A DNA stretch of 64,000 nucleotides from Stackebrandtia endophytica (GTDB lineage Bacteria; Actinomycetota; Actinomycetes; Mycobacteriales; Micromonosporaceae): assembly GCF_006716355.1 (NCBI RefSeq), contig NZ_VFOW01000001.1, forward strand, positions 4,402,001 through 4,466,000, in the 5' to 3' direction. The translations under genes were made by a program, and so were the position numbers. Numbering within the stretch: the first letter of the stretch is position 1; each line of letters opens with the position of its first letter. Of the stretch, positions 52,429-58,602 are shown one piece after another. The notes beneath the pieces are model-generated. The model worked only from the letters and a program-made list of their open reading frames with translations, did no database searches and was not told where the DNA came from.

Positions 52429-52641
52429 GAGGTCTCCCTGGGTGTGTGTGGGTGATGTCGTTGAGGTGGTGGAGGGACGAGGCGCCGGTGGCCCGGGGCC
52501 GATCAGGCCGCCAGCAATCCAAGGGTATCGATATGTTGCTTAACAGTGGGGCCGTCGCGGCCATTAGGTGAACAACCGCCCGTCGCCACCACAGTGGATT
52601 GAGGTGCGAAAACGTCGCAGGGTGGTCCTACACTCCCCGCC

Positions 52642-53034
52642 ATGAAGACGATCGCATTCGTTGACGAGACGACCGCCGGAGGTCGCGGCGACGCCTGGCA
52701 CCTGGAGATCTTCGAGGAGGAACTCAGCCTGCGGGAGTTGATTCGCCGCCGGGTCTTCCAGGAGGTCGCCGAATACAACGCCGAGACCCCGGAGCTGTTC
52801 ACCGGTCTGGTTCAGCCCGGCGACGCCGAGGCCACCCTCAACGGCTACCGCATGCGAAAACGCCGAAAGGTCGATCCGCAGCGCCAATTCGAACTGGCCG
52901 TCGAGGCCTTCCAGCGCAACGGTTTCGTCGTGCTGGTCGACGACCGTCAGATCGAGGAACTCGATGCGACGATCCACATCGAACGCGCCAGCGAGGTCAT
53001 CTTCCTCAAACTCGTCCCCCTGGTAGGTGGCTGA
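52642..53034 (+). CDS. Putative ubiquitin-like (beta-grasp) protein with C-terminal Gly-Gly
   Basis: A 130-residue protein. Residues 3-10 (TIAFVDET) and 18-25 (AWHLEIFE) look like the first beta hairpin, LSLRELIRRRVFQEVAEYN (28-46) like the helix, and the C-terminal third FVVLVDDRQIEELDATIHI then ASEVIFLKLVPLVGG follows the order of ubiquitin's last strands (RLIFAGKQLEDGRTL and STLHLVLRLRGG), ending exactly at Gly-Gly. A charged insert (residues 47-92, with MRKRRKVD) separates the halves. Its stop overlaps the start of the DUF4132 gene (TGATG), so the two are translationally coupled. No E1-, E2- or JAB-like gene is in the window, so conjugation is unproven. Confidence 0.7.
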   Translation: MKTIAFVDETTAGGRGDAWHLEIFEEELSLRELIRRRVFQEVAEYNAETPELFTGLVQPGDAEATLNGYRMRKRRKVDPQRQFELAVEAFQRNGFVVLVDDRQIEELDATIHIERASEVIFLKLVPLVGG

Positions 53035-55508
53035 TGGCCGCATCGGTAACGCCCACACTGGCCGAGTTCGACGAGCTGGTGGCCGTCGAGGACCTGTCGG
53101 GTCTGGTGGACGCATACGCGCGCATGGCCTCCTCGACCAAACCGTGGATGTCCACCGAAAGCGAGTACGTCACGGTCCTTGCCGCGTTGTCCGCCACCTC
53201 CCGCGCCGAGTTGATCGCTCGGCTCGCGCGGTACTCCGACTCGAACAACCGGGTCGATCTTCACACCAAGCACCGGGTGCGGTCACTGGCCACACTGCTC
53301 CACGCCGCCGAGAAGACCCACGACCTGGACGCGCACCTGCCGCTACTGCAGGAGGTCGCCGCCACCTGGGTCTGGTATCCCACCGAACCGCTGCAGGCGG
53401 TCCTTGAGGCGTTCCGCGCCGTCGGGCGACCGGTACCGCCGCAGGTCATCGCCACGGGTCGCCGCAGCGCGATCGCCGGATGGAACGCCGGCCAATTCAA
53501 AGCCTTCATGGACACCTGGAGTGACCCCTTGTTGAACGTCGGTGAACCGTGGGCCGAGCGGGCCTCGAAAGACTTGAGGGGACTGGGCAACGAATGGAGG
53601 GAGCTGGTCTACCACTGCCGCACCGCGACCGCCGCGAAGCCGACCGCGAAGTGGGAGAAACGGGCCCGTGAACTGTTCGCCGCCACCGGCCCCGACACCC
53701 GTGAGCGGTTGATCGGCTGGCTGGAGCTGGTGCCGTTGCCGCGCACCGACGACCAGGCGCTGGACTACGGGTATCACGTGGAGGGCACACTCGACCCCTA
53801 CAACGCCGACATCATTCGCGGAATGATGTGGATCCTCGGATTCCTGGGCGACGACGTCCAGTCGGCCCGGGTTCTGAGCGGCCTGGTCAACACGATGTTG
53901 AAGAAGATCCCCGGCGTCGGCCCCAGGGCACCCAAGATCGCCAACGCGGCGGTGCTCGCATTGTCGCGTATGGAGGGTGAACACTCGCTGGGGCAGCTGG
54001 CGCGACTGAGTTCCAGCGTCAAGTTCAAGGGGACCCTGAACCAGATCAACACCGCGATGGAGGCCAAGGCGACCGCACTGGGCGTCACCCGCGACGAGAT
54101 CGAGGAGATGGCGGTCCCCGCATACGGGCTCACCGAGGTCGGGCGGCAGGTCGTGCCGCTGGGGGACTGCCGCGCCGAGATCACCGTCGACACCGAGGCC
54201 GCGCTCAGCTGGTTCAACGAATCGGGAAAGCAGACCAAGGCACCGCCGGCGGCGGTGAAACGGGACCATCCGGACCGGATCAAGGAACTGAAGGCCGGCG
54301 TCAAGGACGTCAACAAGATGATGACCGCGCAGATCGAGCGGCTGGACCGCCAGTTCCTGCTGCGTCGTCAATGGCGCGGCGACGTCTGGCGGCAGCGCTA
54401 TGCGGCTCACCCGCTGCTGGCGACCCTGACCAGGCGGCTGTTGTGGCGAGTCGACGATCGTGTCTGCGGATACGCCGACGGCCGTTGGCGCGACCTGTCG
54501 GACGCCTGCGTCGACATCCCCGACTCGGCTCGAATACAACTGTGGCACCCCATCGGCGAGGAGGTCGCCTCGATCGTGGCCTGGCGCGAATGGTTGGAAC
54601 GCCACCAGATCCGTCAACCGTTCAAACAGGCGCACCGCGAGGTGTATCTGTTGACCGCCGCCGAGGAGAACACCGGAACCTACTCCAATCGGTTCGCCGC
54701 CCACATCCTGCGGCAACACCAGTTCCACGCGTTGGCGGCCGCGCGCGGATGGCGCAACCGGTTGCGTCTCATGGTCGACGACTCCTACGAACCGCCCTAT
54801 AAGGAGCTGCCGGCCTGGGGGCTTCGCGCCGAGTTCTGGGTCGAGGGCATCGGCGACGACTACGGCGCCGACACCACCGACAGCGGCAGCTATCTGCGGT
54901 TGGTGACCGATCAGGTGCGGTTCTATCGGGCGGAGGCCGAGGCGAACTACGGCCACGCCTCCGGCGGGGGCTACGGGCGCTACCGGGGTGGCGGCGGCGA
55001 GGCGGACGAACCGATTCCGCTGTCGCAGATCCCGCCACTGGTGCTCAGTGAGGTGCTGCGCGATGTGGACCTGTTCGTCGGAGTGGCCAGTGTGGGCAAC
55101 GACCCGACCTGGTCCGACGGCGGTCCCGAAGGCCGCTACCGCGACTACTGGCACTCATACAGCTTCGGTGAACTCGGCCAGACGGCGCAGACCCGTAAGG
55201 AGTTGTTGAGCAGGCTGATCCCGCGATTGGCGATCCGTGATCGGGCTGAAGTGGACGGTCGGTTCCTGGTGGTGCGCGGCGACATCCGAACCTACAAGAT
55301 CCATCTCGGTTCGGGAAACATCCTGATGGAACCCAACGATCAGTACCTGTGCATCGTTGCGGGGCAGTTCAAGGGCGGTCGCGGCGACACCGGTTTCCTG
55401 CCGTTCGAGGGCGACGGAACCTTGGCGGTGATCCTGTCCAAGGCACTGCTTCTGGCCAAGGACACCGCGATCACCGACTCGACGATCACCTCGCAGTTGG
55501 GGCGGTGA
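53034..55508 (+). CDS. DUF4132 family protein
   Basis: An 824-residue protein whose ATG overlaps the stop of the ubiquitin-like gene. The N-terminal 400 residues are helical and repeat-like (Ala/Leu-rich, HEAT-like in feel). The C-terminal half carries the DUF4132/MolR-type signatures: PLLATLTRRLLWRV, AHREVYLLTAAEE, WGLRAEFWVEG, SEVLRDVDLFVGVASVGNDP and near the end GDIRTYKIHLGSGNILMEPN followed by DQYLCIV. A Gly-rich loop (SGGGYGRYRGGGGE) lies around residues 642-655. DUF4132 proteins are known beside MoxR ATPases and vWA proteins in conflict-type or chaperone systems; none is here. Biochemical role is unknown; a joint function with the small partner is the strongest clue. Confidence 0.83.
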   Translation: MAASVTPTLAEFDELVAVEDLSGLVDAYARMASSTKPWMSTESEYVTVLAALSATSRAELIARLARYSDSNNRVDLHTKHRVRSLATLLHAAEKTHDLDAHLPLLQEVAATWVWYPTEPLQAVLEAFRAVGRPVPPQVIATGRRSAIAGWNAGQFKAFMDTWSDPLLNVGEPWAERASKDLRGLGNEWRELVYHCRTATAAKPTAKWEKRARELFAATGPDTRERLIGWLELVPLPRTDDQALDYGYHVEGTLDPYNADIIRGMMWILGFLGDDVQSARVLSGLVNTMLKKIPGVGPRAPKIANAAVLALSRMEGEHSLGQLARLSSSVKFKGTLNQINTAMEAKATALGVTRDEIEEMAVPAYGLTEVGRQVVPLGDCRAEITVDTEAALSWFNESGKQTKAPPAAVKRDHPDRIKELKAGVKDVNKMMTAQIERLDRQFLLRRQWRGDVWRQRYAAHPLLATLTRRLLWRVDDRVCGYADGRWRDLSDACVDIPDSARIQLWHPIGEEVASIVAWREWLERHQIRQPFKQAHREVYLLTAAEENTGTYSNRFAAHILRQHQFHALAAARGWRNRLRLMVDDSYEPPYKELPAWGLRAEFWVEGIGDDYGADTTDSGSYLRLVTDQVRFYRAEAEANYGHASGGGYGRYRGGGGEADEPIPLSQIPPLVLSEVLRDVDLFVGVASVGNDPTWSDGGPEGRYRDYWHSYSFGELGQTAQTRKELLSRLIPRLAIRDRAEVDGRFLVVRGDIRTYKIHLGSGNILMEPNDQYLCIVAGQFKGGRGDTGFLPFEGDGTLAVILSKALLLAKDTAITDSTITSQLGR

Positions 55509-57119: not shown

Positions 57120-57653
57120 TCAGCCGGCCAGTGCCGCTTCGGCGTCCAGAGTCACCGCGGCGGCGTGAACGACGGCGGCGATCCGCAGCGCGTCGTGCAC
57201 GTTGTCGCGGGAGATGCCCTCCTTGGTGAGGGTCTTCTCGTGCGACTCCAGGCAGACACCACAGCCGGTGATCGCCGAGACCGCCACCGACCACAGTTCG
57301 AAGTCGAGCTTCTCCACTCCGGGGCGACCGATGATCTGCATCCGCAGCCGCGCGGGAAGCGACTGGTACGCCTCGTCACCGATCAGGTGCTTGGCCCGGT
57401 AGTAGACGTTGTTCATCGCCATGATCGAGGCCGCGCCCTTGGCGGCGGAGACCGCCTCCTCGGACAGGTGCTTGGCCGCCTCGTCGGCGATCTCTCGCAG
57501 CACCACCGGGTTGCGGGCGGCGATGGCGCACGCCAGGAGGGTGCCCCACAGTTGCTGCTCGGTCAGCGAAGACGTGGTGGACACCGAACCCAGGTTCAGC
57601 TTGGTGTCCTTGGCGTACTCCGGCAGAGCCGACTTGATGTCTTCGATACCCAT
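57120..57653 (-). CDS. ahpD: Alkyl hydroperoxide reductase AhpD
   Basis: A 177-residue protein from ATG 57653. The AhpD fold's active site is CGVCLESHE (Cys131, Cys134, His138) with the supporting Glu119 in LDFELW, matching Mycobacterium tuberculosis AhpD shifted by one. It reduces the peroxiredoxin AhpC using lipoamide-linked electrons. Its start codon overlaps the ahpC stop (TAATG), so translation is coupled, and a 13-bp terminator follows. Confidence 0.96.
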   Translation of the reverse strand: MGIEDIKSALPEYAKDTKLNLGSVSTTSSLTEQQLWGTLLACAIAARNPVVLREIADEAAKHLSEEAVSAAKGAASIMAMNNVYYRAKHLIGDEAYQSLPARLRMQIIGRPGVEKLDFELWSVAVSAITGCGVCLESHEKTLTKEGISRDNVHDALRIAAVVHAAAVTLDAEAALAG

Positions 57654-58204
57654 TAAGAGGCCATCAGTTTCTTGGCGTCGAGGGTCTCGCCGTCCTTGTT
57701 CCAGTTGCACGGGCACAGCTCGTCGGTCTGGAGCGCGTCCAGTACCCGCAGCACCTCGGCGACGTTGCGGCCGACGGAACCGGCGGTGACCATCACGAAC
57801 TGGATCACGTTGTCGGGGTCGACGATGAAGGTGGCCCGCTGTGCGACGCCATCCTCGCCGAGGACGCCGGCGGCTTCGGTCAGCTCACGCTTGACGTCCG
57901 ACAGCATCGGGAACGGCAACTCACGCAGGTCCGGGTGGTCCTTGCGCCACGCGTAGTGCACGAACTCGTTGTCGACCGACCAGCCCAGGACCTGGGCGTC
58001 ACGGTCGGCGAACTCGCCGTTGAGGCGGCCGAACTCGGCGATCTCGGTGGGACAGACGAAGGTGAAGTCCTTCGGCCATGCGAACAGGACGCGCCACTTG
58101 CCCTGGTGGGACTTGTGGTGGATGGTCTCGAAGGCGTTGTCCGGTTCGAGCGAGACGCACGCGGTCAGCTCGTACTCGGGGAAGTGGTCGCCAACGTTCA
58201 GCAC
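57653..58204 (-). CDS. ahpC: Alkyl hydroperoxide reductase AhpC (peroxiredoxin)
   Basis: From GTG 58204, preceded by AAGGAG, 183 residues; upstream in-frame codons to 58363 lack features. Typical 2-Cys peroxiredoxin: FAWPKDFTFVCPTE with peroxidatic Cys51, and C-terminal LCPCNW with Cys164 and Cys166. The CPC arrangement is that of actinobacterial AhpC, which has three cysteines and works with AhpD. It detoxifies peroxides and peroxynitrite. No OxyR gene is adjacent, though it is the usual regulator in Streptomyces. Confidence 0.96.
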   Translation of the reverse strand: MLNVGDHFPEYELTACVSLEPDNAFETIHHKSHQGKWRVLFAWPKDFTFVCPTEIAEFGRLNGEFADRDAQVLGWSVDNEFVHYAWRKDHPDLRELPFPMLSDVKRELTEAAGVLGEDGVAQRATFIVDPDNVIQFVMVTAGSVGRNVAEVLRVLDALQTDELCPCNWNKDGETLDAKKLMAS

Positions 58205-58602
58205 AGTTTCTCCTTGCGAAGTCGTGAAGCGGTCCGGTGCCGTCACCGGCCTTATCTGGAATCGTTCAAAAATGTACCCGCTGGTTACGACACGCAGCCC
58301 ACCGGAGTGGGGTGTTGTGGGACGGATCTCGAACTCCAGGCGTGACCAGTCGGAACACGGCAACCGATTCGGCGTGACCGGGGTGTGTCCGGGTCAACCG
58401 GACACACCCCTCGCCTTGGCCGCCACTCGACGTTCGGGCACGTGGTCGGCCTCATGTCGTGGCGAGTCGACGGCCGACGAAACTCACTCCACAGTGCTCA
58501 TATTCGGGTCATGTGTACGAATGTGAGGAGCGGATGGTCGCGGCGGTCCGGGTGGGGCGCCTGGCGGAGGCACCGCGAACCCGACCTCCCAGACCACTAC
58601 CC
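58205..58602. terminator. Gap with a 13-bp terminator hairpin
   Basis: A 398-bp gap upstream of ahpC. GGGGTGTGTCCGG (58380-58392), loop GTCAA and CCGGACACACCCC (58398-58410) form a perfect stem that would end the minus-strand glycosidase gene, 193 nt past its stop. The ahpC promoter should lie at about 58210-58290; I see no clear OxyR or Fur site. Nothing else is recognised. Confidence 0.65.

Follow-up and report, generated by a model that had tools for sequence, protein, structure and literature searches.

Analysis of a 64,000-nucleotide (nt) stretch of the Stackebrandtia endophytica genome (contig NZ_VFOW01000001.1, positions 4,402,001 to 4,466,000; hereafter the window) revealed a gene for a small ubiquitin-fold protein with a free C-terminal Gly-Gly (GG), here called Ubl (ubiquitin-like), that is encoded together with a DUF4132 protein. 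In several relatives the two genes are probably controlled by DNA damage, and in two they adjoin an activating (E1) enzyme; these features point to a stress-response modifier or sulfur carrier of a kind not described so far. Our best reading, to which we assign a probability of roughly 0.5, is that Ubl would be a damage-induced carrier or modifier of the Urm1/MoaD type, which is activated by an E1 enzyme and works with DUF4132. It rests on the beta-grasp fold, modelled with moderate confidence, on the conservation of the tail and the pairing with DUF4132, on one clade that lacks both of these, on two operon-encoded E1s, and on the PafBC and DdrO motifs found upstream in relatives.

The Ubl gene (52642..53034, forward strand), assigned from the list of open reading frames (ORFs), its homologues and the fold model, encodes a beta-grasp (MoaD/Urm1/ubiquitin-like) protein of 130 amino acids (aa) that terminates in FLKLVPLVGG directly before TGA, with the codons of the terminal Leu-Val-Gly-Gly at 53020..53031 on the same strand. 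Its stop codon (TGA, 53032-53034) shares one base, as TGATG, with the start codon (ATG, 53034-53036) of an 824-aa protein gene (53034..55508, forward strand), in which Pfam recognized a DUF4132 domain at residues 398-573 (54225..54752; PF13569, 5.9e-51) and a DUF7737 domain at residues 718-822 (55185..55499; PF24879, 8.3e-39). The original prediction of a 130-residue protein ending in LVGG, whose stop overlaps an 824-residue DUF4132 gene, was confirmed in its coordinates and in the TGATG overlap. The small protein gave no matches to Pfam or NCBIfam, none of 17 homologues showed a credible match to a family of either, and a whole-genome search revealed it to be a single copy.

The AlphaFold model of Ubl was a beta-grasp with a mean confidence score (pLDDT) of only 68.6. 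The ubiquitin-like order of structural elements previously proposed from the sequence was right in this model, which adds a stretch (residues 48-94) that follows helix 1, precedes the strand after it, and includes a second helix at 79-91. The comparison of the predicted structure with ubiquitin, set in the original prediction as a test that could refute it, placed a chain of human molybdopterin synthase as the best solved match, followed by ubiquitin and NEDD8, and the top rows were ubiquitin-fold proteins, against the refuting case of a fold unrelated to beta-grasp; a structural second look covered the best 1000 chains of Foldseek, so nothing follows from the lack of other folds there. At the sequence level, the alignment profile of Ubl matched only PAS domains among the PDB sequences (E 0.07 or worse), the DUF4132 profile found nothing better than E 0.14 there, and all 17 members left the ThiS/MoaD family models of Pfam and NCBIfam unmatched up to E 1.

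The 130-aa ORF is not a chance ORF, since homologues are found at 41-64% identity in actinobacteria and Bacteroidota and, more distantly, in Deinococcus and Novosphingobium; the named relatives include Hamadaea, Phytohabitans, Nonomuraea, three Hymenobacter and two metagenome-assembled genomes (MAGs). Ubl was detected in 19/396 genomes of its own phylum at E 1e-3 and, at E 1e-6, in 26/345 genomes of its own class, in 11/395 Bacteroidota genomes and in 11/246 genomes of the Bacteroidota order of genome G1077 (8 shared with the Bacteroidota search). An alignment of 17 rows with a mean column identity of 51% contained eight invariant columns, two of which are the terminal Gly-Gly. DR_A0165 of D. 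radiodurans matched the family profile with an i-Evalue of 3.8e-17 in a four-sequence search and has the C-terminus LTALAGG. Its gene stops two bases short of DR_A0166, which encodes the DUF4132 protein, and at 2-7 kb downstream of this pair there are modA and thi genes. A small Acetobacter gene adjoining DUF4132 was rejected as not homologous to Ubl, E. coli YehK lacks a terminal GG, and seven pattern stretches on viral contigs held no relative.

Sixty-seven loci were collected, and after removal of L026, which had no profile hit, 66 genes from four phyla remained. Gly-Gly is the exact C-terminus in 45 of them, and a tree of 62 rows (unrooted; G567, G608b, G626 and G653 left out) was divided into two deep branches (99/99) with GG on both sides. 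A Gly-Gly that is not conserved or is followed by further residues, which the original prediction had treated as contrary evidence, was found only on side branches: ten genes end in G-x-[YI]-W (nine G-x-Y-W and one G-S-I-W, all from the order of G1077), eight actinobacterial genes have other tails without Gly-Gly, two genes are broken, and one is an in-frame Ubl-DUF4132 fusion of 986 aa (L106:6338-9298, reverse strand) with a shortened Ubl and an internal LVPLAGG. Each of the two non-GG groups forms a single clade (87/94 for G-x-[YI]-W, 100/100 for the other). The former tails (L080-L086 and L129-L131) read G-[AST]-[YI]-W, with a conserved aromatic end after the Gly, accompany mostly long DUF4132 partners, and may belong to a precursor that is processed or to a form that is not activated. 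At L102, the frame behind Ubl stops after nine codons.

The two deep branches correspond broadly to short (mostly about 700-900 aa) versus long (mostly about 1550-1720 aa) DUF4132 partners, as measured by ORF length from the first possible start, with the exception of G171, whose 865-aa partner is on the long side. DUF4132 was matched in none of the eight genomes of the actinobacterial non-GG clade, compared with 20/31 across the whole search, and tail and partner are therefore jointly absent there. The exceptions are G529, which has a GG gene and no DUF4132 match, and G626 and G1046, which likewise gave no DUF4132 match. We also considered whether Gly-Gly is kept solely for its DNA sequence, a Shine-Dalgarno-like GGNGG ahead of the DUF4132 start, since that start codon lies 2-13 nt past the Ubl stop in most of the 45 GG genes and GGAGG falls within the Gly-Gly codon pair in 11 of them. 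However, GGAGG is missing from the codon pair in the other 34, the TGATG starts leave a short spacing for a ribosome site, and the residues ahead of Gly-Gly are conserved as protein. Above all, in G709, where the gene order is swapped and Ubl follows DUF4132 with the same TGATG overlap, the protein still ends in LVALVGG, indicating that Gly-Gly does more than provide DUF4132 with a ribosome site; we consider this explanation highly improbable.

A ThiF-type gene was found at E 1e-6 in two of the 51 stretches examined (8-22 kb for most), both from Bacteroidota. L005, from the Flavobacteriales MAG G740, has Ubl followed by DUF4132 and then by an E1 gene whose GTG start and the stop of DUF4132 overlap; L077 (G1077) carries these three genes head to tail, with gaps of 2 nt. 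The L005 E1 matched PF00899 at 1.4e-59, reached the cut-off of none of the 25 listed NCBIfam models, and matched PADLOC E1-E2 defence models via its E1 part. Both E1s are of the single-domain ThiF/MoeB type without a rhodanese domain, and both retain the family's ATP loop and Cys, which we take to have their usual roles here. Since a separate E1 is present in G740 in a molybdopterin cluster beside MoaE, and a ThiF in G1077 in a thiamine cluster (with no MoaE), the operon-linked E1s are best read, from their gene context, as dedicated enzymes. They pair weakly in the E1 tree (83/51) on long branches, and the corresponding Ubls pair at 85/69 in the Ubl tree.

An E1 over the cut-off was detected in all 26 searched genomes with a GG-ended gene, including G1077 and G961, and also in the fusion genome G567, in each case unlinked outside the two operons; as 11 of 14 control genomes have one too, this is by itself no evidence. 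Six of the seven genomes searched with G-x-[YI]-W tails have an E1, and G940, a nearly single-contig genome, has none. JAB matches were present in 18/28 genomes and never beside the pair; there was none in G1077 and none over the cut-off in G740. No E2, for which no model search was made, was recognized by eye in L005 or L077. Of the co-occurrence asked about earlier, the ThiF/E1 part was seen in the two Bacteroidota operons, and the JAB part beside none of the pairs. The earlier statement that the window (4.40-4.47 Mb) holds no E1-like or JAB-like gene agrees with whole-genome searches, in which the members of this genome over the cut-off are located at 1.31 and 1.57 Mb.

Upstream of the window gene, a degenerate PafBC-type (DNA-damage) promoter, CGTCGCAG - 8 nt - TACACT, was identified at 52613..52634 on the forward strand; it matches 5/8 of TGTCRGTG plus TAnnnT, weak for this genome (consensus tTGTCRgtg-8 nt-TannnT, PMC5656591, in the text available to us). 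The -10 element ends 7 nt before the ATG, and the transcript would therefore be leaderless. A site of this 5/8 type at the fixed spacing of 28-30 nt occurs at a frequency of 3.3e-4 of window positions, and its spacing is the same as in relatives with exact matches. Seven actinobacterial genes (G128, G182, G246, G585, G601, G529 and G577) have the exact consensus 28-30 nt ahead of the start chosen, and a 7/8 site was found in Hamadaea and in the G626 remnant. The ten-gene clade of the window gene accordingly contains seven exact sites, one near, one degenerate (the window, 5/8) and one gene without (Phytohabitans), and the site is present in 0/13 Nonomuraea-type genes. Whole-genome counts against a reversed control (70 vs 2 in G128, 72 vs 1 in G585, 52 vs 0 in G577, 6 vs 0 in G529, and 19 vs 0 in G550, although the Ubl genes of G550 have no site) indicated that the pattern is real in these genomes. 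The window's own genome gave 11 matches against 4 in the control, the window site not being among the exact ones, and damage control in this organism is at most weakly suggested by the promoter sequence.

Damage-type control is also suggested in Deinococcus, where a near-exact DdrO motif lies 73-92 nt upstream in the three species examined, of four Deinococcus records matched. The accessible parts of PMC8533742 describe DRA0165 as a DdrO target and report that mitomycin C raises the DRA0166 protein in an IrrE-dependent manner, whereas those of PMC9650054 state that the DdrO motif is absent upstream of DR_A0165. The near-perfect motif at L032:1500-1640 upstream of DR_A0165 supports the former over the latter. 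PMC9650054, to the same extent, reports that the DR_A0165 product increases after irradiation and H2O2, and that the deletion mutant has raised antioxidant capacity and catalase. A LexA-like box of at least 7/8 within 220 nt upstream was found at L008 alone, and one 7/8 LexA-like box lies 25 nt upstream of E. coli yehF. In Hymenobacter L007, a UmuC-like ORF, identified by eye, is located upstream at a distance of 237 nt.

In comparison with known systems, Ubl shares with MoaD and ThiS the beta-grasp, a short free C-terminal GG tail, a ThiF/MoeB-type E1 and one dedicated client (partly from general knowledge; PMC1779556, in part), and differs in being unmatched by their models, in the extra residues 48-94 with their helix, in DUF4132 as the client, and in having no recurrent cofactor genes nearby, as judged from the 25 largest clusters of neighbours. 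The bacterial E1-E2-Ubl-JAB systems (Bil/CBASS-type, and the FtsH ternary system of Kaur 2020, as far as its text was available) likewise combine a Ubl with an E1 gene, and a further resemblance is that some operons of the present family lie close to integrases or defence-like genes, whereas no E2, RING or JAB was recognized here, the E1 is single-domain, and the partner is DUF4132. DR_A0165/DR_A0166 (SEP068184) is a true homologue of the pair; in the consulted parts of PMC9650054, DR_A0165 is predicted to be MoaD/SAMP1-like and presented as Deinococcus-only, the main text mentions neither "glycine" nor "conjugat", and the published accounts of the two genes, to that extent, draw no link to an E1. 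In the YehF-YehI region of E. coli (WGR, DUF4132, MoxR, vWA), DUF4132 is shared, but there is no Ubl among the annotated genes and MoxR, vWA and SWIM genes follow; the earlier remark that DUF4132 occurs beside MoxR/vWA thus holds there, and PMC8533742, in its available part, seems to say that MolR has been described as a member of the LexA regulon. Around the pair itself, no MoxR or vWA was found by Pfam among ten chosen ORFs at 45.3-59.7 kb of the window. Urm1, SAMP and TtuB use an E1 of this class, need no E2, and can have a double role as carrier and modifier; Ubl differs from them in that only one of the 17 members reached Pfam Urm1, at E 0.16, and in the lack of JAB linkage.

We propose that the pair would form a two-protein unit in which a ubiquitin-like carrier serves a dedicated client. 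The free C-terminal Gly-Gly of Ubl would be adenylated by a ThiF/MoeB-type E1, encoded in the operon in the two Bacteroidota and presumably borrowed from the housekeeping E1s elsewhere, and the tail, activated as an acyl-adenylate, thiocarboxylate or E1 thioester, would be handed on to the translation-coupled DUF4132, as in MoaD-MoaE and ThiS-ThiG. DUF4132 might then use the tail chemically, in sulfur transfer, or act as an acceptor or ligase attaching Ubl to proteins, and DNA damage would switch the unit on in several lineages. Of the modifier, thiocarboxylate or adaptor roles originally envisaged, the activated ones have gained from the E1 as third gene of two operons; we infer the activation and chemistry of the tail, its conjugation or conversion to a thiocarboxylate, and what DUF4132 does.

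An activated carrier with a dedicated client is the best fit, and its two forms, each rather unlikely when taken singly, are equally placed on the data. If Ubl bears a thiocarboxylate, with DUF4132 as an enzyme (comparable to MoaE, ThiG or tRNA thiolases) that accepts the sulfur and makes a repair- or stress-related product, then the single-domain ThiF/MoeB-type E1s, the lack of a recognized E2 or a nearby JAB, the one large client and the top structural match from molybdopterin synthase would all be accounted for; the single-domain E1, the missing E2 and the unlinked JAB are what incline us to a carrier. This form is weakened by the lack of a rhodanese domain in both operon E1s, by the absence of recurrent genes for a rhodanese, a sulfurtransferase or biosynthesis from the 25 largest clusters of neighbours, and by DUF4132 having no known fold or activity. 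Alternatively, DNA damage might lead to the conjugation of Ubl to proteins, DUF4132 being the ligase or first acceptor and no E2 being needed, as for Urm1 and SAMPs; this is what the free terminal GG, the operon E1 and the damage-type promoters would allow. The 157 proteins that co-purify with DR_A0165 (PMC9650054, in part), together with the damage-type control, incline us to a modifier, but the interactors were obtained also with C-terminal tags, and no JAB is found in G1077, or over the cut-off in G740.

Against any activation stand the G-x-[YI]-W tails that accompany long DUF4132 in one Bacteroidota order, G940, which keeps such a pair without an E1 match, and the in-frame fusion. On the strength of chiefly these three, Ubl could be no more than an adaptor, a beta-grasp subunit whose shape fits DUF4132 and whose tail is inserted there without ever being activated; we regard this as about as doubtful as either form above, since the two operon-linked E1s have intact family motifs and GG is exact across four phyla. 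A broader proposal, tentative and only slightly more favoured, is that the unit would be a damage-response Ubl system outside the E1-E2-JAB types, with a Gly-Gly Ubl, a single-domain E1, DUF4132 as a new ligase or acceptor, and induction of the PafBC, DdrO or LexA type, and that E. coli MolR/YehI would share its chemistry.

As for the surroundings, the 25 largest neighbour clusters listed contained, beyond the pair, shadow ORFs and chromosomal neighbours that related actinobacteria have in common, and PADLOC gave no match for the pair. Genes for CMD-family (AhpD-like) and AhpC/TSA-family peroxiredoxin proteins lie at 57120-58363 of the window on the reverse strand, at least 1.6 kb downstream, and show no sign of membership. 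In Hymenobacter (L004:10469-18434), three tandem DUF4132 genes follow one Ubl gene. Tyrosine recombinase, insertion sequence-like, YhcG/DUF1016 nuclease, PLD-helicase and HipA-type genes, some identified by eye, lie near the pairs of L007, L077, L079, L034 and L008 (Bacteroidota and Novosphingobium), whose surroundings are mobile or defence-like.

A link between DUF4132 and a ubiquitin-like protein was not found in the parts of the open-licence literature searched; the surveys of Iyer 2006 and Kaur 2020, as far as accessible, describe other E1-Ubl operons and none of this pairing, DUF4132 having no occurrence in the latter. No known function was found for DUF4132, a family spread over several phyla, E. 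coli included. The Gly-Gly Ubl, the E1s and the DNA-damage promoters give it a testable chemistry, and separate reports on DR_A0165 and DR_A0166 of D. radiodurans are joined into one system. Actinobacteria are known for another protein tag, Pup, and with the present pair the DNA-damage responses of bacteria may come to include a Ubl pathway.
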